A stretch of DNA of 64,000 bases from Lachnospiraceae bacterium MD335 (GTDB lineage: Bacteria > Bacillota > Clostridia > Lachnospirales > Lachnospiraceae), in NCBI GenBank assembly GCA_000403335.2, contig KE159630.1, forward strand, positions 185,172 through 249,171. The letters run 5' to 3'. Position 1 is the first letter of the stretch. Each line of letters opens with the position of its first letter. The notes under the pieces were generated by a model. That model did not search any database. It was not told where the DNA came from and was given only the letters and a program-made list of their open reading frames with translations. The translations under genes were made by a program, and so were the position numbers. Shown here piece after piece: positions 5,629 to 26,249 of the stretch.

Positions 5629-7179
5629 ATGAAAAAGTTTAAGACAGTCATAGTGCAGATCCTTGTATTTATATTGATTCTGCTTACATTCAGCATGGGT
5701 TGGTGTATTGACAACTTTGGAAATATTGGTTTAAGCGAAATTATTTTTACGCTGAATATGCCGCTAAAGGGAACGGCAAACTCCTATTTTCTCACCTATT
5801 TTCTATATGCGTTTTGTCCGGCAGCAGTATTATTTGGATTGGAGTTATTTGCGGCATTTCGCACACCCAAACATATGTATGGACTCCGGCTTTCGTTTCG
5901 GGATAAGATCTCTGAGATTCCGATACTGCCTTTTCGGCTTAATGGTGCGGTGTGGACGATTGTGATGCTTATATGGTTCGGTGAGATTGTCAGTATTGCA
6001 GACGATAATTTTGCAGTGTTTGATTATGTAAAAAGTCAGATGGACGCTTCGGAGTTTATCGAAAATGTATATGTAGATGCGGGAGAGACGAATATTACAT
6101 TCCCCCAGCAGAAGCGCAATTTGATCTGCATCTATGTAGAGTCGGCAGAGACTTCTTTTCAGGATAAAGGAAACGGAGGATTTCTTGATTACAACATTAT
6201 TCCTGAGATGACCGCGCTTGCGGCGGAGAATGTAAGCTTTTCCCATTCGGAACTGTTGGAGGGTGCGGCTGTGGCGCCTGCATGCGGCTGGACGATGGCG
6301 GGGCTTGTGGCACAGACATCCGGACTTCCGCTGAAGCTGTTTAAATATGAGGCGACAAACGGCGGTGTGGATAATTCGATGGGAAAATATGCCGCGTTTA
6401 TGCCGGGGGCGACTGCAATCGGGGAAATTCTTGAGCAGGAAGGCTATTACAACATCTTTATGGCGGGGTCTGATTTTACGTTTGGGGGCAGACGTGATTA
6501 TTTCACGCAGCATGGAAATTATGAAATTTGGGACTATAATACGGCGGCAGAGCTGGGGAAAATACCATCAGATTACAAGGAAGGCTGGGGCTTTGAGGAT
6601 GCAAAGATGTATGCGTTTGCAAAGGAAAAGCTGACAGAGCTTGCCGCAACGGGACAGCCCTTTAATTTTTCGCTGCTTACGGTGGATACGCATACGGGGG
6701 GCGGTTACTTGTGTGAATTGTGTCCGGATACCTATGACAGGCAGTATGCAAACGTGTGGGCATGTGCATCCAACCAGGTATATCAATTTGTAGAGTGGAT
6801 CAAACAGCAGGATTTTTATGAAAATACGGCAATCTGCATAACAGGTGACCATTGCAGTATGGAGGCTGGCTTTTTTGAAGAGCACGAATATTATGAACGG
6901 CATTCGGGTGAGACGCAGCGAAAGGTGTACAATGCTTTCATCAATGCCGCAGTGCAGCCTGTCAATATGAAAAACAGGAAATTTACGACAATGGACATCT
7001 ATCCGACTGTACTTGCTTCCATCGGAGCAAAGATAGACGGTGAAAGGCTTGGATTGGGGACCAACTTATTTTCCGATGTGCCTACGCTTGCGGAAGAATA
7101 CGGATATGAGCAGATGTTTGCCGAGTTAAATAAACGGTCGCGATTTTATGACAATACCATTTTGTATCCCGAAAAGTAA
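5629..7179 (+). CDS. LtaS/MdoB-like phosphoglycerol transferase, copy 1 (membrane sulfatase-fold)
   Basis: A 516-residue alkaline-phosphatase-superfamily enzyme. The N-terminal ~125 residues hold three or four membrane helices, fewer than the five of staphylococcal LtaS; the rest is an extracellular sulfatase-fold domain. The expected metal and catalytic residues are visible: E171 in IYVESAE, the likely nucleophile T222 in GWTMAGLVAQTSGLPLK, and D407-H408 in TGDHCS. The spacing around the Thr resembles E. coli MdoB/OpgB more than LtaS. Such enzymes take phosphoglycerol from phosphatidylglycerol and place it on a glycan or a growing polymer. It starts 2 bases after the ABC transporter stop. 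The acceptor is unknown; phosphoglycerol modification of the locus glycan is inference. Confidence 0.87.
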   Translation: MKKFKTVIVQILVFILILLTFSMGWCIDNFGNIGLSEIIFTLNMPLKGTANSYFLTYFLYAFCPAAVLFGLELFAAFRTPKHMYGLRLSFRDKISEIPILPFRLNGAVWTIVMLIWFGEIVSIADDNFAVFDYVKSQMDASEFIENVYVDAGETNITFPQQKRNLICIYVESAETSFQDKGNGGFLDYNIIPEMTALAAENVSFSHSELLEGAAVAPACGWTMAGLVAQTSGLPLKLFKYEATNGGVDNSMGKYAAFMPGATAIGEILEQEGYYNIFMAGSDFTFGGRRDYFTQHGNYEIWDYNTAAELGKIPSDYKEGWGFEDAKMYAFAKEKLTELAATGQPFNFSLLTVDTHTGGGYLCELCPDTYDRQYANVWACASNQVYQFVEWIKQQDFYENTAICITGDHCSMEAGFFEEHEYYERHSGETQRKVYNAFINAAVQPVNMKNRKFTTMDIYPTVLASIGAKIDGERLGLGTNLFSDVPTLAEEYGYEQMFAELNKRSRFYDNTILYPEK

Positions 7180-7198
7180 AAAGGAGGACTGATAAACA

Positions 7199-8746
7199 AT
7201 GAAAAGGCTTGCGGCTATGGTAAGACAGCTTTTGGTATTTTTTATGCTGCTTCTTTCGTTCAGCCTTGTATGGTGTATCAATAATTTTGGGAATATCGGA
7301 TTAAGTGAGATTGTGTTTACACTCAATATGCCGCTGAAAGGAACTGCGAATTCTTATTTTGTATCCTATTTTCTGCTGGCTTTTTTACCGGCGGCGGTTT
7401 TTTGGGGCATCGAACTGCTGTTAAAGTGTTTTCCCAAAAAGCGCACATATTCCCTGGCACTTTCGATTGGCAAGAGGACAATGGATATTGGAATACTGCC
7501 CATTAGACTTAATTGGATTGCCTGGCTGCTTGTAATGGCAATATGGCTTGGACAGATTATCGGCATTGCAGATGACAATTTTGAGCTGTACGCATATGTG
7601 CGGAGTCAGATTGAAGCTTCAGAACTGATTGAAAACGAGTATGTGGATGCGGCGAATGCAACGATTCACTTTCCAAACGAAAAACAAAATCTGATTTTTA
7701 TATTTATAGAGTCTGCGGAAACCTCCTTTATGGACAAGGCAAACGGCGGGCTTTTGGATGAAAATATTATTCCTGAATTGACGCAGCTTGCGAAAGAGAA
7801 CGTAAGTTTTTCCCATTCGGAGCTTTTGGAGGGTGCGGCTGTGGCGCCTGCGTGCGGCTGGACGATGGCAGGACTGATGGCACAGACATCAGGAATGCCG
7901 CTCAAACTGTTTAAGTACCAGGATAATACCGGAGGCGTTGATAATTCGATGAGCAAATATGCTTCCTTTATGCCCGGACTTACGTCTCTTGGTGAAATTC
8001 TTGAGAAACAAGGGTATCATAACTTTTTCCTTGCAGGGTCCGATTTTGCGTATGCGGGGAGGAAGGATTATTTTACACAGCATGGGAATTATGAGATATG
8101 GGACTATAACAGCGCTGTTGCAGAGGGAAGAATTCCTGATAATTATAAAGAAGGCTGGGGGTTTGAAGACGCAAGACTGTATGAATACGCGAAGGAAAAG
8201 CTGACGGCGCTTGCTGTGCAGGGAGAGCCTTTTAATTTTTCCATGCTTACGGTTGACACACATGCCGGCGGCGGTTATCTGTGTGAACTGTGCCCGGATA
8301 CTTACGGGGATCGATATGCGAATGTATGGGCGTGTGCGTCCCGTCAAGTATTTGATTTCGTGGAATGGATCAAACAGCAGGATTTTTATGAGAATACAAC
8401 CATCTGTATCACAGGCGACCATAGCAGCATGCAGACAGGTTTCTTTGAGGATTATGAGTACGACAAGCATGAGGGGGATACGGCAAGAAAGGTGTACAAT
8501 GTTTTTATTAATGCAAAGGCAAATCCGGTCAATCATAAAAACCGGCAGTTTACCACGCTTGATATGTTCCCGACAGTGCTTGCTAGCCTGGGAGCTCAGA
8601 TAGAAGGGGAACGGCTGGGCATCGGAACCAATTTATTCTCCGATGTGCCTACGCTTGCGGAGGAATACGGCTATGAGCAGCTGTTTGCAGAGCTTAATAA
8701 AAAGTCAAGATTCTATGACAACAATATTTTATATCCCAATAAATAA
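7199..8746 (+). CDS. LtaS/MdoB-like phosphoglycerol transferase, copy 2 (tandem paralogue)
   Basis: A 515-residue paralogue of the preceding gene, collinear over its whole length and strongly similar, with the same predicted nucleophile position (T222 in GWTMAGLMAQTSGMPLK), VESAETSF metal site and TGDH motif. Some stretches are almost identical at DNA level, such as around 6259-6300 and 7829-7870, and near both 3' ends, which suggests a recent duplication or gene conversion. The N-terminal helices and the 150 residues after them diverge more. It follows copy 1 by 19 bases with an AAGGAGG site. The two may act on different acceptors or as initiator and elongator, as with LtaP and LtaS in Listeria; that split is a guess. 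Confidence 0.87.
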   Translation: MKRLAAMVRQLLVFFMLLLSFSLVWCINNFGNIGLSEIVFTLNMPLKGTANSYFVSYFLLAFLPAAVFWGIELLLKCFPKKRTYSLALSIGKRTMDIGILPIRLNWIAWLLVMAIWLGQIIGIADDNFELYAYVRSQIEASELIENEYVDAANATIHFPNEKQNLIFIFIESAETSFMDKANGGLLDENIIPELTQLAKENVSFSHSELLEGAAVAPACGWTMAGLMAQTSGMPLKLFKYQDNTGGVDNSMSKYASFMPGLTSLGEILEKQGYHNFFLAGSDFAYAGRKDYFTQHGNYEIWDYNSAVAEGRIPDNYKEGWGFEDARLYEYAKEKLTALAVQGEPFNFSMLTVDTHAGGGYLCELCPDTYGDRYANVWACASRQVFDFVEWIKQQDFYENTTICITGDHSSMQTGFFEDYEYDKHEGDTARKVYNVFINAKANPVNHKNRQFTTLDMFPTVLASLGAQIEGERLGIGTNLFSDVPTLAEEYGYEQLFAELNKKSRFYDNNILYPNK

Positions 8747-17650: not shown

Positions 17651-19459
17651 ATGCAGGCGGTAATTTTGGCAGCCGGAATGGGAAAACGGTTAAAGGAGCT
17701 GACAAGTGAGGCAACAAAATGTATGGTGAAGGTTAACGGCGTCGCCATAATCGACAGGATGCTGGGATATTTGGACAAGCTTGGACTCTCAAGGATTGTT
17801 GTTGTGGTGGGCTATGAGGGGGAAAAACTCAGGGCGTATATTGATGCCCTTGCAGTATCCACGCCGATCACATATGTTGACAATGATATATACTACAAGA
17901 CAAACAATATCTATTCCCTGTATCTTGCAAAGGACTATCTTTTGGAGGAAGATACGCTGCTGCTTGAGTCCGATTTGGTATTTGAGGAGGCGGTCTTAAA
18001 AAAGATTGCGGAACATCCGTATCCGAGCCTTGTGCTGGTGGATAAGTTTGAAAGCTGGATGGACGGGACGGTTGTGACGCTTGATGAGCACGATGGTATC
18101 AAGGCGTTTGTGACAAAACGTGAGTTCGATTTTAATAAAACAGATGCATATTATAAAACCGTGAACATTTATAAATTCAGCAGAACATTTTCACAGCTTT
18201 ACTATGTGCCGTTTTTGGAGATTTATTGTAAGGCGATGGGCACAAATGAGTATTATGAGCAGGTTTTAAAGGTTATTACGTTTATGGAAGACCCTCAGAT
18301 TAAAGCGGTTAAGCTTACCGGTGAGAAATGGTATGAAATCGACGATGTGCAGGACCTGGACATTGCGGAAACGATCTTTTTGGAGGGAGAAGAAAAACTT
18401 GCGCGTTTTGAGAAACGCTATGGCGGATACTGGCGTTATCCAAAGCTTTTGGATTACTGTTATCTTGTTAATCCTTTTTTCCCGTGTAAGAGGCTGATTG
18501 CAGAAATGCAGTCGGCGTTTCAGACACTTCTTTGCCAATATCCTTCCGGAATGCAGATCAATTCTTTGGTGGCTGCAAAAAATTTCGGATTAAAGCAGGA
18601 CCAGGTTATTGCAGGCAATGGAGCCGCAGAGTTAATTAAGAGTCTTATGGGAAAACTTGACGGGCGCATAGGGGTGCTTCACCCCTCGTTCGAGGAGTAT
18701 GCAAATAGAAAGACAAGCGATGCGCTTGTCGCGTTTATTCCAAATAATAGGGATTATTCCTATACTGCCGATGATTTAATGCACTTCTATTCGGATAAGG
18801 ATATTCAGTCTCTGCTTGTTATAAATCCCGATAATCCTTCGGGAAATTATATCGGAAGAGCAGACTTGCTTCGGCTGGCGGAGTGGGCAGGGGCACGCGG
18901 CATAAAGCTTGTGGTTGATGAGTCATTTGTGGACTTTGCGGATGTGCAGGAAGACAAAACGCTCCTGGAACAGGAGATTTTAATGCAAAATCCACATTTG
19001 TTTGTGGTCAAAAGCATTTCAAAATCCTACGGCGTGCCGGGGCTGCGTCTTGGAATAGCGGCGTCAGGAGACAGGGATTTGATTGCTGATATGAAGAAGG
19101 ATGTGGCAATTTGGAATATTAATTCGTTTGCAGAGTTTTATATGCAGATTTATGAGAAGTACCGGTCAGAATACCAAAAGGCGCTCTTAAAATTTTATGA
19201 TGTGAGGCGCAATTTTGTAGGAGAACTGACAAAGATACGGTTTTTGCGCGTGATTCCTTCGCAGGCAAATTATGTAATGTGCGAGGTGCTTGAACCTTAC
19301 ACAAGCAGGGAGCTTGCGGTAAAACTGCTTGAGAACAATATTTTAATTAAGGACCTCTCAAAGAAAGCAGGATTTGATCAAAAACAGTATGTGCGTATCG
19401 CTGTTCGGGATGATGCGGACAATGAGAAACTGATTGCTGCACTGAAAGGGCTTGCATAG
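17651..19459 (+). CDS. bifunctional protein: LicC-like CTP cytidylyltransferase fused to CobD/HisC-like PLP enzyme
   Basis: A 602-residue fusion. Residues 1-245 are a nucleotidyltransferase close to LicC (phosphocholine cytidylyltransferase): LAAGMGKRLKELT, KCMVKVNG, YYKTNNIYSLYLAKD, LLLESDLVF and the closing WYEIDDVQDLDIAE. Residues ~260-602 are a fold-type I PLP enzyme with NPDNPSGNYI, VVDESFVDFAD, the PLP lysine at about K458 (KSISKSYGVPGLRLG) and SQANYVMCEV, the set seen in histidinol-phosphate aminotransferase and threonine-phosphate decarboxylase CobD. The PLP part may make an amino-alcohol phosphate by decarboxylation or transamination and pass it to the cytidylyltransferase to form a CDP-activated group. 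The substrate is not readable; phosphoethanolamine, aminopropanol-P or aminoethylphosphonate are candidates. ATG 17651 fits GGAGG best. Confidence 0.85.
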   Translation: MQAVILAAGMGKRLKELTSEATKCMVKVNGVAIIDRMLGYLDKLGLSRIVVVVGYEGEKLRAYIDALAVSTPITYVDNDIYYKTNNIYSLYLAKDYLLEEDTLLLESDLVFEEAVLKKIAEHPYPSLVLVDKFESWMDGTVVTLDEHDGIKAFVTKREFDFNKTDAYYKTVNIYKFSRTFSQLYYVPFLEIYCKAMGTNEYYEQVLKVITFMEDPQIKAVKLTGEKWYEIDDVQDLDIAETIFLEGEEKLARFEKRYGGYWRYPKLLDYCYLVNPFFPCKRLIAEMQSAFQTLLCQYPSGMQINSLVAAKNFGLKQDQVIAGNGAAELIKSLMGKLDGRIGVLHPSFEEYANRKTSDALVAFIPNNRDYSYTADDLMHFYSDKDIQSLLVINPDNPSGNYIGRADLLRLAEWAGARGIKLVVDESFVDFADVQEDKTLLEQEILMQNPHLFVVKSISKSYGVPGLRLGIAASGDRDLIADMKKDVAIWNINSFAEFYMQIYEKYRSEYQKALLKFYDVRRNFVGELTKIRFLRVIPSQANYVMCEVLEPYTSRELAVKLLENNILIKDLSKKAGFDQKQYVRIAVRDDADNEKLIAALKGLA

Positions 19460-19478
19460 GTTAATAGGAGAAAAGCGG

Positions 19479-21380
19479 ATGGAAGTTATATACAATGTCT
19501 TTGAGGCGGCTATGAATGGCTGTTATGCGCTTTGCAATAATTATGGAGCGGCAATTGTGCTTTTTACACTGCTTAGCAAGATTGTGCTGCTGCCAGTATC
19601 CGTATGGGTACAGAAAAATTCAATTAAAATGGTAAAGATGCAGCCGGAAATCAATTCAATTATGATAAAGTATTATGGTGATAAGGATGCCATAGGGGAA
19701 GAGCAGGCAATGGTTTATAAGCGGGAAAAATACCATCCGACGGCATCAATTTTTCCGCTGGTGATACAGCTTGTGCTGCTGATGTGCGTAATTGAAGTTA
19801 TCAAAAGAGGAATCGATAATCCGCTGATTGACATGCGGTTTGCAGGAACGGATTTAAGCCTTGTGCCAAGTGTTGAGGGGATTGGTCTGATATGGTCTCC
19901 AATTATCGCGGGAGTTTCTGCATGGCTTTTGTGCGTGGCGCAAAACGCAGGCAATGTGCTCCAAGCCGAGCAGTCAAAGCTCAATAAATATGGTCTTATG
20001 GCATTTTCTGTAGGATTGTCCCTTTATTTGGGCTGGTTTGTTTCTGTGGGAGTAGCGCTTTATTGGACTGCCAGCAATCTTTTGGCTATTGTGCAGCTGT
20101 ATCTGTTAAATTGGGCGGTTAACCCTAAAAAGTATGTGGATTATGAAGCGCTTGAGAAAAGCAAGGAGGAGCTTGCGCGTTTGGGAACTGTAGGCGGGGA
20201 AAAACGCAGGCGTTTCAATGACCCAAAAACCAAAAGGGAGCGGCAGGATTATAAAAGGTTTTTCTCAGTGGTGAATAAGCATCTTGTGTTCTACTCCGAG
20301 AGCAGTGGATTTTACAAGTATTATAAAGGAATGATAGAATATCTGCTGGAGAATACCAATTTGGTAATCCATTATATTACAAGTGATTTCGAAGATGCGG
20401 TTTTTGAACTTGCCAAGGAGCAGACGCGGATAAGACCATATTATATCGGTGAAAAAAAGCTGATTACGCTTATGATGAAGCTGGAGGCGGACATCATGGT
20501 GATGACGATGCCCGACCTTGAGACCTATCACATCAAGCGAAGTTATGTAGACAGGAAGATTGAGTATGTATATATACCGCATGGTATGGACAGCCTGAAT
20601 CTCACCATGCGGACCGGTTCTATGGATCACTATGATACCGTGTTTTGTGTAGGAAAGCACCAAAAGGAAGAAATCGAAAAGACAGAGGCAGTATACGGAC
20701 TTCCCCCAAAAAAGCTTGTGGAGTGGGGGTATTCCTTACTTGACGAGATGCGTGCGGATTATGCGCGGTTAGAACCATCTGCCTGTGATAAAAAGCGTAT
20801 TTTAATTGCGCCCTCATGGCAGGAGGACAATATTGTTGACAGTTGTCTTGAAAAAATACTTGATAATTTAAAAGGACAGGGGTATTATGTAACGGTACGC
20901 CCGCATCCTCAGCATGTGCGCCATAGAGCGGAGCTGATGGAGCAGTTAAAAAAGCGCTATGAACAGGATGCGGATATTGAGATACAGACAGATTTTTCTT
21001 CGAACGCTGTGGTGTTTGAGGCGGATCTTATGATTACAGACTGGTCGGGCATCGCTTATGAGTATGCATATACCACGAGAAAACCCGTATTGTTTGTTAA
21101 TACACCCATGAAGGTGATGAATCCGGAATATCAGAAAATTGATACGGTACCGCTTAATATTCTCCTTCGTGATGAGATCGGATGTTCGGTTGATTTGGAC
21201 CGGCTTGATCAAATTTCAGAGTCTGTGCGATTGCTGCTTGAGAACAGCGGAGCGTATTATGAAAAGATTGGGCGCTTTGTGGAGGAGTACGTATATCATA
21301 ACGGTACGAGCGCACAAGTGGGAGCAAAATATCTTGTTTCGCAGATACAGAAGAAAATTGAGGAGAAGAAGAAAGGATGA
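19479..21380 (+). CDS. YidC/Oxa1 insertase domain fused to TagB/TagF-like CDP-alcohol phosphotransferase
   Basis: A 633-residue fusion. Residues ~18-225 read as a YidC/Oxa1/Alb3 core: GAAIVLFTLLSKIVLLPVSV, then KMVKMQPEINSIMIKYYGDK, YHPTASIFPLVIQLVLL and three more helices. The lead helix pattern and the KMxxxQPE coil are typical of YidC. After a charged linker, residues ~262-620 are a CDP-glycerol glycerophosphotransferase-type GT-B domain with VYIPHGMDSLNL (H368), APSWQEDN, YVTVRPHPQH and LMITDWSGIAYEYAY (D521). TagF-type enzymes transfer phospho-alcohol from a CDP donor to a lipid-linked acceptor. The upstream gene would supply the CDP donor. The YidC part may serve as a membrane anchor or acceptor groove rather than an insertase (inference). 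ATG 19479 follows AGGAG by 8 bases. Confidence 0.87.
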   Translation: MEVIYNVFEAAMNGCYALCNNYGAAIVLFTLLSKIVLLPVSVWVQKNSIKMVKMQPEINSIMIKYYGDKDAIGEEQAMVYKREKYHPTASIFPLVIQLVLLMCVIEVIKRGIDNPLIDMRFAGTDLSLVPSVEGIGLIWSPIIAGVSAWLLCVAQNAGNVLQAEQSKLNKYGLMAFSVGLSLYLGWFVSVGVALYWTASNLLAIVQLYLLNWAVNPKKYVDYEALEKSKEELARLGTVGGEKRRRFNDPKTKRERQDYKRFFSVVNKHLVFYSESSGFYKYYKGMIEYLLENTNLVIHYITSDFEDAVFELAKEQTRIRPYYIGEKKLITLMMKLEADIMVMTMPDLETYHIKRSYVDRKIEYVYIPHGMDSLNLTMRTGSMDHYDTVFCVGKHQKEEIEKTEAVYGLPPKKLVEWGYSLLDEMRADYARLEPSACDKKRILIAPSWQEDNIVDSCLEKILDNLKGQGYYVTVRPHPQHVRHRAELMEQLKKRYEQDADIEIQTDFSSNAVVFEADLMITDWSGIAYEYAYTTRKPVLFVNTPMKVMNPEYQKIDTVPLNILLRDEIGCSVDLDRLDQISESVRLLLENSGAYYEKIGRFVEEYVYHNGTSAQVGAKYLVSQIQKKIEEKKKG

Positions 21381-21394
21381 AAAGGAGAACGATT

Positions 21395-21655
21395 ATGAAA
21401 AAAGGAATTTTAAAGGTATTTGGTGTGGGGTATTTATGCATATGCGGAATGCTTTTGTTCGGCGAAAATTCACAGGCATATATTGACCCTTCCGTGGCAA
21501 CCTATGCGATACAGGCAGTGGCGGGGATTGTGATTGCAATCGGCGCTGTTGCGGGAATTTATTTTCGAAGGGCTAAGAAAAAGTTAAATGATACGCTTGG
21601 GATTGATGAAAATAAAAATAAAGAAGTTGAATCGGATGATATTACAATAAAATAG
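21395..21655 (+). CDS. small secreted or membrane protein of the AYIDPS type
   Basis: An 86-residue protein. It has an apparent signal peptide (residues 1-22, ending NSQA), then YIDPSVATYAIQAVAGIVIAI, a membrane helix, FRRAKKK and an acidic tail. Short proteins with an AYIDP(S/G) motif right after signal cleavage and a single helix recur beside bacterial surface-glycan genes, but I know of no assigned role. ATG 21395 lies 7 bases after AAAGGAG and 14 bases after the YidC-TagF gene. As last gene before the terminator, it probably works with the two fusion proteins, perhaps as a small subunit (inference). Confidence 0.75.
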   Translation: MKKGILKVFGVGYLCICGMLLFGENSQAYIDPSVATYAIQAVAGIVIAIGAVAGIYFRRAKKKLNDTLGIDENKNKEVESDDITIK

Positions 21656-21668
21656 CGTGTGTAATTTA

Positions 21669-21700
21669 AAAAGCAGTCTAATTTATAAGGGACTGCTTTT
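21669..21700. terminator. bidirectional hairpin terminator between convergent genes
   Basis: A perfect 10-bp inverted repeat, AAAAGCAGTC (21669-21678) and GACTGCTTTT (21691-21700), with a 12-base loop. It has A-rich and T-rich outer ends, so it can end transcription in both directions. It overlaps the stop codon of the minus-strand signal peptidase gene and closes the run of + strand genes that reaches back to the left edge. Confidence 0.85.
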
Positions 21701-22172
21701 CACATTGCGGGGGACGGTTTGGAATTAGGCGTCCTACGATATAACTGCGGTCGATACACCCGATTTCCTCATATCTGCTGTCTCTGCTCTGTGCAGGATT
21801 ATCGCCCATCACAAAAAAATGGTCCGCGCTTATGGTAAGCGTGTCACGGGCAATGCCGCCATAGGATACAGGATCACAGACATAAGGGCTTGGATTATCG
21901 TTTACCTGTACGATCCCGTTTGTAATTTGAATGGCATCGCCGGGACCTGCGATGATGCGTTTTACCATAGTACTGTTTTGTGAAGGGCAGTAAAATACAA
22001 TAACGTCTCCGCATTGAAAATCTGCGGCACGCCGGTCAATTAAGGTAAACTGCATATTTTTATAAGTCGGGTACATGGACGCTCCCTGAATCAGATTAAG
22101 CTGATAGTAGTTTTTGGAAATATACAGGGTGAGGATCAGTACCAAAAGTATAAGAATCAATTTTTTCCGCAT
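21678..22172 (-). CDS. lepB: signal peptidase I (S26 family)
   Basis: A 164-residue type I signal peptidase and the only minus-strand gene supported. One N-terminal membrane helix (residues 4-19) precedes the catalytic Ser in QGASMYPT (S32), the general-base Lys in TMVKRIIAGPGD (K71) and box E, FFVMGDNPAQSRDSRYEEIG. Length and layout fit the short Gram-positive SipS-type enzymes. It cleaves signal peptides outside the membrane. It has its own probable promoter in the divergent spacer, so it need not follow the polysaccharide genes. A dedicated role for proteins of this locus, which include several with signal peptides, is possible but unproven. Confidence 0.92.
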   Translation of the reverse strand: MRKKLILILLVLILTLYISKNYYQLNLIQGASMYPTYKNMQFTLIDRRAADFQCGDVIVFYCPSQNSTMVKRIIAGPGDAIQITNGIVQVNDNPSPYVCDPVSYGGIARDTLTISADHFFVMGDNPAQSRDSRYEEIGCIDRSYIVGRLIPNRPPQCEKQSLIN

Positions 22173-22303: not shown

Positions 22304-24142
22304 ATGAAAAAGCTGATATATGAGCTGCTCGCTTTGGCGGCAGCGATGCTTACCACGGTGGCGCTTTTTGCGGATGTGGAATCGACCGGAAATCTGTCAA
22401 TGGCATTAAACGGCGACGGCATTCCGCAGCTGATAGCATTTGCGGCAATGTTGTCCGTATACCGAAAATGGATTGTGAAAAAAGCGTTCATACAGCGGAC
22501 AAGCCAGCGTGATAAAATCTGCGGTGCAGTTATCGCACTGATGTTCACTGCCTTTATGATAATTGGAAAAGCGCAGATTGCGGAGCCGGACTTAAAATAT
22601 GAGTTGTTTGCTGTTTTGCTGTTTTTTGGATATATGCCTTTGTTTTATCTGGCGGCAGTGTTTTTGATGCAAACAATTGATACGCATTCTAAAACGCAGA
22701 CAGCTGCAAAATCAGGGAGCGTTACAGAATGGCTTTTTGAAAAGCATGTGACGGCAGGTGTGATGCTTGTGGTCTTTTTGTGCCGTCTGCCGTATCTTTT
22801 GGCATTTTACCCATGCTCAATGTCGTGGGACGGCGGTGCGCAGATTTGCTGTTTTTTCGGGACGGAACCGTTTACGGACCATCATCCGCCGCTGATTAGT
22901 TATCTGTACGGTGCGATTGCATGGTATTCGCAGGAGTGGGGCATTCCCAATATGGGAATGTTTGTGATTCCCATGATGCAGACCCTGCTCTCGGCATTTG
23001 CGGCAGCGCAGGTGTGTGTGCTTTATAAACGCCTTAGAACGCCTTACTGGATGCGGTGGGGAAGTCTTGCGTACTATGCGGCATTTACGGTTTGGTGTAT
23101 TTTTGACTGTACGGTGATTAAGGATACGCTCTATTATCCGCTGACGCTTTTATTTACCTTGCAGCTTATCGCCTGTGTGACGGATAGTGAAGTGTTTTGG
23201 CGCAAAAAGAGCAATCTTGTTTGGATGATAATCTATGCCGTGCTGATGATGCAGACAAGAAATAACGGCGTGTTTGTGGTGCTGTTTGCCGTTCCGTTTG
23301 CGCTGTATTTTGTGAAGGGAAAGCGGGCGCTTTTGCTTGCGGGAGCATGTGTGATGCTGCTTGCCAATATTGCGCTCAACAATATGCTGTATCCGGCGCT
23401 TGGCGTGACGCGTCTTGATACAAAGGAGGATACGTACTGTATTATGTTTCAGCAGACGGCAAAATATGGTCAGGATTATCCGGGGGATGTGACGGACGAA
23501 GAGCGGGAGCTTTTAAATACGATTTTTGATTATGACGAGATGGTGAAGGTGTATAATCCGCAGCTTGCGGACTGGGTGAAAAACTGTTTAAAGCTTTCGG
23601 AGTACCATTCTGCAGATCACACCAACAAAGAGTTTTCTGCGGTAAAAAGAGACTATTTTAAAGTATGGTTTGCACAGTTTTTGCGGCATCCTATGTCTTA
23701 TGTCAAGACGTTTCTCGAATGTTCCTACGGCTATTACTATCCGGAGGCAAAGCCGTATAAGGAGGGAACGGGTTTTTATGAGAGCGAGCGCAATATGCTG
23801 ACAAGCGGTATGCATGCTTACAGACAGGTGAAGCAATTGCAGCCTGCGCGGTTTTTGCTCCGGCAGGTGAGCAAGGCAGAATACCTGCCGGGAATCGGAC
23901 TTTTGTATCGCTGCGGCTTTTACACATGGTGCGTGGTATTTGCGGGGATGTATTTGATTGCAAAGCGAAGATACGCGCTGCTGGCAGCAGTGATTGTGCC
24001 GGCGGTGAATATTTTGGTATGTCTGATTTCTCCGGTGAATACCTGTATTCGGTATGCGATGCCCACAATGTGTATGGTGCCCGTCCTATTTGGAATGCTA
24101 TGGAGTAAAGATAAGGGAGGACTGGAAAACGATGGAACGTAA
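22304..24142 (+). CDS. DUF6020-like membrane protein, copy 2
   Basis: A 612-residue polytopic protein, paralogous to the one at 12865. It has about eleven helices; MSWDGGAQICCFFG (near residue 180) and DHHPPLISYLYGAIAW follow, then RNNGVFVVLF and an extracellular loop (about residues 375-530) with FQQTAKYGQDYPG. The matching FQQTARYIRDYEQ in copy 1 confirms the relationship. DUF6020 is uncharacterised; the layout suggests a GT-C membrane glycosyltransferase. It is the first gene after the divergent spacer and starts a new transcript. Confidence 0.72.
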   Translation: MKKLIYELLALAAAMLTTVALFADVESTGNLSMALNGDGIPQLIAFAAMLSVYRKWIVKKAFIQRTSQRDKICGAVIALMFTAFMIIGKAQIAEPDLKYELFAVLLFFGYMPLFYLAAVFLMQTIDTHSKTQTAAKSGSVTEWLFEKHVTAGVMLVVFLCRLPYLLAFYPCSMSWDGGAQICCFFGTEPFTDHHPPLISYLYGAIAWYSQEWGIPNMGMFVIPMMQTLLSAFAAAQVCVLYKRLRTPYWMRWGSLAYYAAFTVWCIFDCTVIKDTLYYPLTLLFTLQLIACVTDSEVFWRKKSNLVWMIIYAVLMMQTRNNGVFVVLFAVPFALYFVKGKRALLLAGACVMLLANIALNNMLYPALGVTRLDTKEDTYCIMFQQTAKYGQDYPGDVTDEERELLNTIFDYDEMVKVYNPQLADWVKNCLKLSEYHSADHTNKEFSAVKRDYFKVWFAQFLRHPMSYVKTFLECSYGYYYPEAKPYKEGTGFYESERNMLTSGMHAYRQVKQLQPARFLLRQVSKAEYLPGIGLLYRCGFYTWCVVFAGMYLIAKRRYALLAAVIVPAVNILVCLISPVNTCIRYAMPTMCMVPVLFGMLWSKDKGGLENDGT

Positions 24143-26249
24143 TATGGTGATTATCCTGCTGTTTTTTGCCCTGCTCGCGTTTCTATCGACCGGAATATGG
24201 ATAGTTGTCGAGAAAAAGGCGGACAGATGCAGTTCTGCCATGCAGTGGGTAAGGACAGGCATTTTCTTTTTTCACGGCTTTTATTTTGCGGCATCTGCCG
24301 TGAAGTATTTGATTGGAAATTGGGAAGATACGCTGTTAGAGAGCTTTTGGGACATGGGAATACACACGTTTGTACATTACGGTGCGCCGCTTGCAGCGGC
24401 GGCGGTGCTTTTTCCGGTGGCTGTCAGTCTTGTTTTTCGGGGCAAATGTGTTCAATTTATTACTCTGCTGAACCAATATGTGTTCTTTGGCGTATTTTTG
24501 CTTTTGCTTAGCAACGGAAAAATAAATAATAAAACCTTTACGTGGTTTTACGCGGCAGGAATCGTCCTTTCGGTCTTGTTTGCTGTCTTTTATAAAAAAG
24601 ACACGACCTTTGCAAACGGCAGGGAGTGCAGAAAAAATGTGCTCGGATTTTTGCCTGTGATTGGCAGCTGGATTGTGATGAACGGGATTTTTCTCCCCAA
24701 TGAGCTGTATTTAACCAATATGGATGAATTTAAAAATGCTTACGCCGGTTTTTTTGGCTCCTTGTTGTTAGGAGCAATTGTTTTAGGGGGCATTGCTGTG
24801 ATTCTTGCAGCGGCAGTTCTGACTGTGCGGTCATTTCATCTTTTTAAACTGCTGCTTTTTGGCATTGTGCTCATGAATTATCTGCAATATATTCTTCTGA
24901 ACGGAAAACTTGATCTGTTAGACGGGAATGAGCAGAAATGGTCTGCGGCATCAATGGCGGTAAATCTAGGGTTGTGGATTGCGATAATTGCAGCTGTTAT
25001 AGCGCTTGGTATAAAGAAGGGAAGGATAATCAGGGTTTATAACGGAATCTGTCTGTATATTATTCTGATACAGCTGGTAACGCTTGGCGTGATGTGTTTG
25101 ACGACTGAGCTGGATAATGCTTCTTACAGGGCGGGGCTTACGGATGAATATTCACTGGAGTTGTCGGGCGGAAACAATATTCTTGTTTTTATTCTTGATA
25201 ATTTTGACAATCGGTGGTTTCAAGAGTTAAAGGCTGAGGATCCGGAGTTTGTTGCACCCTTAAATGACTTTTGCTTTTATGACAATGCAACTTCCCAATT
25301 TGCACATACCAGTACGGCAATTCCATATTTGCTTACGGGAGTTGCGTGGAGTGAGGAGATGGGAGAGCTGTATGGACGTACTGCATATGAGAATAGTGAT
25401 TTTTTGCATGATCTCAGGGAGTGCGGATTTGATGTCGGGATATATACGCATGGAGGGTATCTGACAGAGAAAGAATATGGAGATATTTCAAACTATAGCG
25501 AAGAGATTAAGAGAACGAGCAATGTTTTCAATACCATTTCGACTATGTGGAAATGTTCGATGTATAAAACGCTGCCGTTTGCATTAAAAGATTCATACAT
25601 GTATTATACGGATGAAATCAATGGAATGACGCAGGCGCAGGGGCAGTGGGATATTGACAATGATTTTCCGTTTTATGAAAGTCTGATTGGCGAAGGGTTA
25701 TCCGTAAACGACGCATATGAAAATGCTTTTCGGTTTTATCATATGAGAGGAGCGCATGCGCCCTATTATATGTCGGCTGATTTGAAATTTGACAAATCGG
25801 GAAGAGAGGTTAGCAGAGAGGAACAGGAACGAGGCTGTCTGCGCATTGTGTATGAATATTTGGAACAGTTAAAGGCACTTGATTTGTATGATTCGGCGAC
25901 GATTATCATAACAGCCGACCACGGAAACGGTGTGTCTTATACGAGTGGAGAACAGAGGCCGGAAACGGTTTCCATGCCTGTTTTGCTTGTGAAGGAAGCA
26001 TATCAGACGAGTGATGAGATGCAGGTTCTTCATGCGCCTGTCACGCAAGGGGAAATTCTGCCGACCATCATAAGAGCTGCGGGCGGAGACAGTGCGGCAT
26101 ATGGCGCATGCCTCGACGAAATTCCTATAGATGCGAAACGGGAACGGTCGTATGTGTCCATTTATAAAAATTACATCATACAATATACGATAAACGGTGA
26201 CGCGAATGATATAAACAGTTGGAAGACGAAGAAAGCGGACTTTAAATAA
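24132..26249 (+). CDS. polytopic membrane sulfatase/phosphoglycerol-transferase-like protein
   Basis: A 705-residue protein. About ten membrane helices fill the first 340 residues; an alkaline-phosphatase-superfamily domain follows. It starts with NILVFILDNFD, which carries the metal Asp, then AHTSTAIPYLLTG with the candidate nucleophile Thr393-Ser394-Thr395, and ITADHGNGV (D596, H597). The many helices and the SxAIPxLLTG motif set it apart from the LtaS/MdoB-like pair at 5629-8746, so it may use another donor such as phosphatidylethanolamine, or act as a hydrolase. ATG 24132 follows AAGGGAGG and overlaps the previous gene by 11 bases. Addition of a phospho-substituent to the glycan is inference. 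Confidence 0.8.
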   Translation: MERNMVIILLFFALLAFLSTGIWIVVEKKADRCSSAMQWVRTGIFFFHGFYFAASAVKYLIGNWEDTLLESFWDMGIHTFVHYGAPLAAAAVLFPVAVSLVFRGKCVQFITLLNQYVFFGVFLLLLSNGKINNKTFTWFYAAGIVLSVLFAVFYKKDTTFANGRECRKNVLGFLPVIGSWIVMNGIFLPNELYLTNMDEFKNAYAGFFGSLLLGAIVLGGIAVILAAAVLTVRSFHLFKLLLFGIVLMNYLQYILLNGKLDLLDGNEQKWSAASMAVNLGLWIAIIAAVIALGIKKGRIIRVYNGICLYIILIQLVTLGVMCLTTELDNASYRAGLTDEYSLELSGGNNILVFILDNFDNRWFQELKAEDPEFVAPLNDFCFYDNATSQFAHTSTAIPYLLTGVAWSEEMGELYGRTAYENSDFLHDLRECGFDVGIYTHGGYLTEKEYGDISNYSEEIKRTSNVFNTISTMWKCSMYKTLPFALKDSYMYYTDEINGMTQAQGQWDIDNDFPFYESLIGEGLSVNDAYENAFRFYHMRGAHAPYYMSADLKFDKSGREVSREEQERGCLRIVYEYLEQLKALDLYDSATIIITADHGNGVSYTSGEQRPETVSMPVLLVKEAYQTSDEMQVLHAPVTQGEILPTIIRAAGGDSAAYGACLDEIPIDAKRERSYVSIYKNYIIQYTINGDANDINSWKTKKADFK

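Follow-up and report, generated by a model that had tools for sequence, protein, structure and literature searches.

Gut bacteria appear, from comparison of their sequences, to carry a membrane machine that may place small amino-alcohol phosphates or phosphonates on surface sugars, and the supply of these groups may be interchangeable. Its components resemble a teichoic-acid transferase, a protein insertase and a lipoteichoic-acid synthase. The genes concerned lie in a window of 64,000 nucleotides from Lachnospiraceae bacterium MD335. We think it probable that together they form a system in the membrane by which a small amino alcohol, linked through phosphate or phosphonate, is attached to a surface glycan, and in which gene 1 would make CDP-ethanolamine, gene 2 would perform the transfer, its YidC domain would provide for crossing of the membrane, an LtaS-type enzyme would carry out the outer step, and the supplier could be swapped. 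The features of the window are as follows.

17651..19459, + strand: gene 1, 602 amino acids, ATG at 17651 and stop at 19459; fusion of a cytidylyltransferase and a PLP enzyme
19479..21380, + strand: gene 2, 633 amino acids, ATG at 19479 and stop at 21380; fusion of YidC-type and TagF-type domains
21395..21655, + strand: gene 3, 86 amino acids, containing AYIDPS; small YIDPS membrane protein
21669..21700, + strand: terminator-like hairpin after gene 3 (folding against shuffles, z -4.8)
24054..26249, + strand: LtaS-type (alkaline-phosphatase superfamily) membrane transferase, 731 amino acids from the first start codon

The initial annotation had described three genes in a row, comprising the two fusions and the AYIDPS protein, with gaps of 14-19 bases. 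Open reading frames, Pfam and the sequence itself bear this out, with 19 bases between genes 1 and 2 and 14 between genes 2 and 3. The unit was also said to end at a terminator, and a stable hairpin is indeed found 3' of gene 3. It has 11 pairs, a 10-base loop and UUUU at the end of its 3' arm, and the bases downstream are not a U run. Folding of 55 nt gave -17 kcal/mol, and 0 of 200 shuffles were equally stable. A terminator consensus scan allowing loops of 3-8 bases did not list this hairpin. The same three-gene order is present in G196 (L033), the second genome of the genus in our sample, where genes 1, 2 and 3 are 71, 79 and 85% identical to those of the window; the arrangement is therefore not the product of chance or an assembly artefact. 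The LtaS-type transferase had been left out of the unit in that annotation.

Two samples were analysed. The first comprised 200 genomes of the window's family, with the window's own genome as G000. The second came from a scan of named genomes that gave 449 gene 2 relatives, the best 80 loci of which were studied. The samples overlap (L065 = G196, L068 = G086, L078 = G135 and L122 = G051), and L059 is 99% identical to the window. Many of the source genomes are MAGs, and genome-wide copy numbers for long queries are lower bounds, since no more than six candidates per genome were scored.

Residues 1-245 of gene 1 form a cytidylyltransferase of the LicC/PntC type, and residues from about 255 to 602 a PLP enzyme like CobD and SMUL_1544. 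The first part matches NTP_transf_3 (PF12804; E 3.8e-10, 40.6 bits against a cut-off of 27) and, among PDB sequences, LicC 1jyk (4.4e-14) and PntC 6pd1 (4.7e-12). The second matches Aminotran_1_2 (PF00155; E 7.2e-28), and its best PDB sequence match is SMUL_1544 6oux (2.4e-39). The model of the PLP domain has the HisC/CobD fold, with CobD as the top structural match, tied with a HisC-annotated protein. Against TIGR01140, the equivalog for the CobD threonine-phosphate decarboxylase, gene 1 scores 169.5 bits, below the cut-off of 290.55. The accessible text of PMC4585668 presents SMUL_1544 as a distant CobD relative that might make ethanolamine phosphate.

The pocket Glu of the cytidylyltransferase fits a two-carbon amine. 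In T. denticola PntC, Glu104 and Glu196 have been placed near the AEP amine, with Asp in LicC (PMC6697681, in the sections available). E106 of gene 1 aligns with Glu104, the LicC counterpart being D105. This position is Glu in 18 of 18 rows of alignment A3, in 21 of 21 gene 1 rows and also in 10 LicCs that sit with phosphonate genes; it is Asp in class-V LicCs, and neither Glu nor Asp in three choline-kinase fusions. The second pocket position, E203, aligns with LicC D192 provided that the 20-residue offset in chain numbering that applies to D105 holds here too, and is one column off from PntC E196, so that it is less sure than E106. Ethanolamine is favored over aminopropanol on two grounds: an alternative supplier yields the phosphonate analogue with two carbons, and gene 1 has retained the Glu with which PntC contacts the AEP amine. 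On homology, pocket residues and gene context, gene 1 would thus make CDP-ethanolamine from phosphoserine: the PLP domain would decarboxylate O-phosphoserine to phosphoethanolamine, and the N-terminal domain of the same polypeptide would join this to CMP.

The PLP domain might instead be an aminotransferase that converts a keto or aldehyde phosphate into, for example, serinol phosphate, giving a different CDP-amino alcohol as donor. The HisC/CobD fold is consistent with this, as is the fusion of PntC with an AEP transaminase in T. denticola (PMC6697681, in the same sections). In G200, moreover, gene 1 is the immediate neighbor of PepM and the surroundings gave no match to AEP transaminase, so that a different role of the PLP domain is conceivable. 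Yet the best sequence match and the tied top structural match are SMUL_1544 and CobD respectively, a search of G000 found no PepM, and the pocket Glu fits a two-carbon amine. We regard the aminotransferase as unlikely.

Gene 2 has a YidC/Oxa1-type domain in residues 1-222 and a TagF-type GT-B domain from about 265 to 630. Both lie above the Pfam cut-offs (60KD_IMP, PF02096, 6e-29; Glyphos_transf, PF04464, 5.4e-12), and the models show the YidC/Oxa1 and GT-B folds. The catalytic histidines of TagF are H444 and H584. Gene 2 has invariant H368 and H476 in HG and RPHP motifs, the comparison with TagF being by motif only, and a PDB sequence search with the TagF part returned only a weak match to TarL. 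The hydrophilic groove of YidC/Oxa1 contains an Arg with a functional role; the corresponding position in gene 2 is Lys34, and is Lys in at least 90% of 50 rows. Gene 2 was rejected as the housekeeping YidC, for G000 has another, separate YidC. Gene context supports gene 2 as a membrane transferase that uses a CDP-amino alcohol.

Gene 3 has no Pfam or NCBIfam match up to E 0.01. Its own profile (E<1e-10) matches all eight of the genomes with gene 2 and 0 of the 192 without (Fisher 1.8e-14); in G135 gene 3 is on another contig than gene 2. Eight further genomes gave weak matches (E 2e-4 to 0.009), which were counted as chance, seven of the eight lying in frames of 119-1038 amino acids. Among the best 80 of the 449 gene 2 loci the profile matches 78, the weakest at 1.6e-17, leaving L078 (= G135) and L136, which is on a cut contig. 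An earlier count of 13 of the 80 loci lacking a YIDPS protein was rejected on this profile search. In 11 of the 80 loci (12 frames) gene 3 forms the N-terminal part of an LtaS-type protein. We propose gene 3 as the partner of gene 2.

By hydropathy gene 3 looks like a short membrane protein with its N-terminus out and its C-terminus in, which is the kind of client expected for YidC. Gene 2 could accordingly be chiefly a specialised insertase for gene 3, with the TagF domain a passenger using the insertase as an anchor, and the one-to-one occurrence of the two genes would agree with that. Such a role leaves the supplier genes and the LtaS-type enzyme unexplained, however, and it sits poorly with the separate YidC in G000 and the replacement of the groove Arg by Lys. 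It is very improbable in our estimation.

The LtaS-type transferase has a closer link to gene 2 than gene 1 has. The copy at 24054-26249 groups by blastp with sulfatase-type genes that adjoin gene 2 in other loci. Among the best 80 of the 449 loci, clustering places 67 members of the family within 6.5 kb of gene 2 in 51 loci; in 28 the gene is the immediate upstream neighbor of gene 2 on that gene's strand, and in 8 the immediate downstream one. A profile of the family matches 58 of these 80 loci; for the 46 whose flanks are full, the figure is 35. Across the 200 genomes it matches (E<=1e-20) seven of the eight with gene 2 and one of the 192 others (Fisher 2.8e-11). The gene 2 genome without a match is G051, where gene 2 is at a contig edge, and the single exception among the 192 is G052, which has an unfused TagF relative beside a YidC-sulfatase protein. 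Against one gene 2 match per genome, G135 has 5 LtaS-type matches and G190 at least 6, as lower bounds.

The window copy keeps the Thr nucleophile and the metal-ligand positions of the superfamily, as Thr, HxxGxHxP and DHG; in the alignment of the family the Thr and two His are present in 68 of 68 rows and DHG in 99%. Against Pfam Sulfatase (PF00884) it scores 0.0018, with 18.1 bits against a cut-off of 25, whereas the family members L081 (36.2), L079 (28.9) and L071 (33.2) exceed that cut-off. Among solved structures, the family profile comes closest to LtaS 4uoo and 2w5q. Although a TxxS[IV]P motif recalls EptA, the label EptA-like was rejected; the solved proteins nearest to the profile are LTA synthases, and its matches at E<=1 did not include EptA. 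NCBIfam gave no equivalog for the sulfatase part in seven proteins of or near the family.

Gene fusions join the same parts in other combinations. In L071, L079, L080 and L113, among the best 80 loci, sulfatase, YidC and TagF form one long protein with a sequence cluster of its own, and Pfam confirmed this order in the three of the four that were examined. A YidC-sulfatase fusion occurs in G049, with both parts recognised by Pfam, and in G052, with YidC recognised by Pfam and the sulfatase part by blastp and profile. Fusions among the sulfatase, YidC, TagF and YIDPS parts indicate that these are tied into one process. The membrane core of gene 2, gene 3 and the LtaS-type enzyme is largely constant across lineages.

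The supply side is more variable. Gene 2 was found in 8 of the 200 genomes, gene 1 in 22 (a count that takes in the copy in G065, ended at residue 506 by a contig end, and leaves out a weak 24% match in G104) and both in 3, where they are near neighbors. By the co-occurrence test that the initial annotation itself put forward the two fusions are often apart, since they occur together in only 3 of the 8 gene 2 genomes and 3 of the 22 gene 1 genomes. A three-gene operon as a conserved unit was therefore rejected; the part of the proposal that survives is gene 1 as supplier and gene 2 as membrane user, judged by context. Gene 1 is present in 3/8 genomes with gene 2 and 19/192 without (p 0.045), and the corresponding figures for gene 1 or PepM are 7/8 and 33/192 (p 5.6e-5). 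PepM was not found in the three genomes with both fusions, and is present in four of the five other gene 2 genomes. G051 has neither gene 1 nor PepM; blastp identifies a LicC-like gene near its gene 2, where a class V aminotransferase is also present.

The phosphonate counterpart of phosphoethanolamine is AEP. In G135 and G190, where the gene 2 relatives are 63 and 49% identical, gene 2 is adjoined by a LicC-like gene and by PEP mutase, phosphonopyruvate decarboxylase and AEP transaminase, each of the last three scoring over its NCBIfam cut-off. Among the best 80 of the 449 loci, with supplier families assigned from representatives, gene 1 occurs in 21, always on the strand of gene 2 and no more than 1.75 kb away from it, and a partial gene 1 in one more. 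Phosphonate genes occur in 12, of which 7 have all four of PepM, Ppd, AEP transaminase and LicC. A class V aminotransferase, its LicC or both are found in 6; a LicC-choline kinase fusion in 3; a class I aminotransferase with a CTP_transf-GFO protein in 4; and LicC alone in 5. No supplier was found in 28, the kinase, aminotransferase and CTP_transf-GFO classes being sought within 6.5 kb and the others over the whole locus. Flanks of 6 kb or more on either side were available for 46 loci, and 11 of these are without a supplier; gene 1 or PepM is located elsewhere in six of those genomes, and neither was found in five. Short gene 1 contigs include L037, L044, L050 and L053. In G154 (L049) gene 1 falls outside the picked ORFs, and its neighbors were left out of the neighbor reading. 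In G022 a gene 1 remnant lies beside gene 2, and a phosphonate locus with an iron alcohol dehydrogenase is on another contig.

A quick tree of gene 2, with four triple-fusion rows cut to their last 640 residues and 22 of its 78 inner branches open, gives at least 7 changes between gene 1 and phosphonate, and the window's nearest relatives include both kinds. Roseburia inulinivorans DSM 16841 (L131), which we take to be a cultured strain, carries the phosphonate version of the gene 2 locus and is the starred sister of another Roseburia (L132) with gene 1. A shuffle control of the tree shows only clustering of the labels.

The consumers are exchanged as well. LicD was sought in 27 genomes. Of the 19 genomes with gene 1 but without gene 2, 10 have it no further than 5 kb from gene 1 (the match in G123 being weak and partial); of the 3 that have both genes, none does. 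In G049 an unfused TagF relative and the YidC-sulfatase fusion come after gene 1. G004 has an unfused TagF relative too, here inside an AEP operon, with AEP transaminase, PepM, LicC and Ppd around it on one strand. That gene 2, LicD or an unfused TagF relative is found close to relatives of gene 1 argues for gene 1 as supplier and gene 2 as user, as does the presence of CMP-aminoethylphosphonate or CDP-choline-type pathways beside gene 2 relatives that lack gene 1. Gene context thus supports gene 1 as a supplier of a CDP-amino alcohol. It is one exchangeable supplier, the others being the AEP pathway with a PntC/LicC-type enzyme and the LicC-choline kinase. Taken with the swaps to LicD and unfused TagF, this indicates that donors and consumers are both exchanged around one chemical idea.

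For the steps that follow the supply of the donor, we suggest that the cytosolic GT-B domain of gene 2 would move phosphoethanolamine to an acceptor at the inner leaflet of the membrane. The transferred phosphoethanolamine or AEP has no free alcohol, so this should be a single capping transfer and not a TagF-like polymerisation. The charged lipid might then cross the membrane with the help of the YidC domain, and outside the LtaS-type enzyme, paired or fused with the YIDPS protein, might pass the head group from the lipid to a surface glycan; these last two steps are the least certain. A CDP donor is out of reach for an enzyme on the outer face, and LtaS-type enzymes draw on the head groups of lipids, so that a charged lipid is the simplest bridge. 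E. coli YidC scrambles lipids in vitro, according to the part of a preprint available (PMC10491306), so the YidC domain could provide the lipid crossing.

Alternatively gene 2 might transfer phosphoethanolamine or AEP directly from the CDP or CMP donor to a lipid-linked glycan at the cytosolic face, in the manner of LicD or TagF. The YidC domain would then be no more than an anchor, and the LtaS-type enzyme would serve some other purpose, for instance the addition of glycerol phosphate to that polymer. The TagF-type domain would suit this, as would the LTA synthases found as nearest solved relatives of the LtaS-type profile and the LicD genes near gene 1 in those 10 of 19 genomes, LicD acting on glycans in the portion of PMC10434233 available. 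But direct transfer does not explain the near absence of the LtaS-type gene from genomes lacking gene 2 (1/192), the fusion of YidC to one partner or to both, or that of the YIDPS partner to the LtaS-type enzyme. We consider it rather doubtful. The initial annotation had expected a phosphodiester-linked amino alcohol on a surface polymer, and direct transfer is one of the two acceptor schemes that the evidence allows.

More tentatively, the passage of a charged lipid might define a new class of envelope machine. A TagF domain would charge a lipid with an aminoalkyl phosphate or phosphonate, YidC would serve for lipid passage and not as an insertase, and the LtaS-type enzyme with its YIDPS subunit would deliver to glycans. 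The plug-in supplier would be a phosphoserine decarboxylase-cytidylyltransferase, the AEP pathway or a choline kinase-LicC.

We know of no GT-B enzyme that uses CMP-AEP, and gene 2 is a candidate for this in gut Firmicutes. A single machine would offer a testable exchange of phosphate and phosphonate. The system would also give a YidC domain a function other than insertion, and a partner to gene 3, a conserved small protein that lacks annotation; it suggests, besides, a phosphoethanolamine route in genomes where no phosphatidylserine decarboxylase was found. The latter enzyme was not found in the searched genomes G000, G196, G086, G135, G051 and G049, and is present in three of the four PepM-carrying genomes with gene 2. 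No description of such a system turned up in the open-licence literature, where keyword searches gave no lead on the YidC-TagF fusion, on a phosphoserine-decarboxylase/CDP-ethanolamine route or on AEP in Lachnospiraceae. In the portion available, a review of gut glycans mentions AEP only in the Bacteroides capsule. Rice et al. characterised CMP-AEP synthesis and noted LicD-like phosphotransferases nearby (PMC6697681, as far as its available sections go).

The gene 1 product resembles the Lic-1 system (LicA/LicC for CDP-choline, and LicD) in having a LicC-type cytidylyltransferase to make a CDP-amino alcohol for a surface glycan, and its relatives are often near LicD. It differs in its fused decarboxylase-like PLP domain, where Lic-1 has a separate choline kinase, and the window has a YidC-TagF fusion, a YIDPS protein and an LtaS-type enzyme, with LicD not nearby. 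A survey of phosphorylcholine genes, in its available text, assigns a CDP donor, LicD and glycans to Lic-1 and a proposed lipid donor and proteins to PptA, with currently no evidence of the two coexisting within bacterial species (PMC10434233). The present system looks like a joining of the Lic-1 and PptA types. The Pnt pathway (Ppm/Ppd/AEPT/PntC; T. denticola PntC-AEPT 6pd1) shares the cytidylyltransferase-PLP layout and the pocket Glu of gene 1, and is itself found beside gene 2 relatives. Gene 1 has a class I CobD-like PLP domain, however, in contrast to the class V AEP transaminase of Pnt, and would give a phosphate ester in a genome where no PepM was found, as against a C-P bond.

Unlike the TagF/TarL teichoic-acid polymerases, gene 2 has an N-terminal YidC domain and its expected donors cannot polymerise; unlike YidC/Oxa1 insertases, it is fused to a transferase, is a second copy in the genome, has the groove Arg changed to Lys and has a dedicated small partner. 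LtaS and EptA/PptA are outer-face transferases with a lipid head group as donor. Like them, the LtaS-type enzyme of the window is a membrane enzyme of the alkaline-phosphatase superfamily with a conserved Thr, but it is paired with a dedicated CDP-dependent inner transferase. GtrB/GtrA/GtrII use separate parts for inner lipid charging, flipping and outer transfer. The proposed system would likewise split charging, flipping and outer transfer among its parts, but with an amino-alcohol phosphate as head group where Gtr has a sugar.

Gene 1, the cytidylyltransferase-PLP enzyme fusion, has relatives in other settings. One in genome G200 immediately adjoins PEP mutase, with the phosphonopyruvate decarboxylase gene further along. 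In G022 a remnant of the gene 1 N-terminus, apparently broken, adjoins gene 2 (the YidC-TagF fusion) and gene 3 (the small YIDPS protein).

L144:9537-12694 (G200), gene 1 relative and PEP mutase
L054:9465-9896 (G022), gene 1 N-terminal remnant

Other enzymes also lie close to gene 2. At three loci a LicC-type domain is joined to a choline/ethanolamine kinase within a single polypeptide (Pfam domains read on L073). In L094 and its relatives L092, L096 and L101, the neighbours of gene 2 are a class I aminotransferase and, after it, a CTP_transf_like-GFO_IDH_MocA fusion (Pfam run on L094). L056, L072 and L122 pair a class V aminotransferase with a LicC-like enzyme in whose pocket IDGD replaces ESD; a search for PEP mutase in G051, the source of L056 and L122, found none. 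This pair perhaps makes another CDP-amino alcohol.

L073:7964-9778, L098:188-2011 and L135:5763-7520, LicC-type-kinase fusion
L094:12102-14499, class I aminotransferase and CTP_transf_like-GFO_IDH_MocA fusion
L056:5751-8125, class V aminotransferase and LicC-like enzyme

At L042 and L141 unfused TagF relatives adjoin a fusion of a YidC domain to a sulfatase-type transferase. The window holds two more Pfam Sulfatase genes upstream, absent from the LtaS-type profile matches in its genome at E<=1e-20. A signal peptidase gene opposes gene 3, and a relative is close to gene 2 in 26 of the 80 loci studied (the best 80 of 449 gene 2 relatives).

L042:11840-14626 and L141:8414-10777, YidC-sulfatase-type fusion
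Window 5629-8743, two Sulfatase genes
Window 21678-22172, signal peptidase gene on the minus strand

Fourteen of these best 80 loci are labelled Candidatus Saccharibacteria (L087, L090, L092, L094-L096, L100, L101, L103, L105, L110, L114, L121 and L125), and five of the fourteen have gene 1 (L095, L100, L103, L110 and L114), which suggests gene exchange between Firmicutes and the very small Saccharibacteria.
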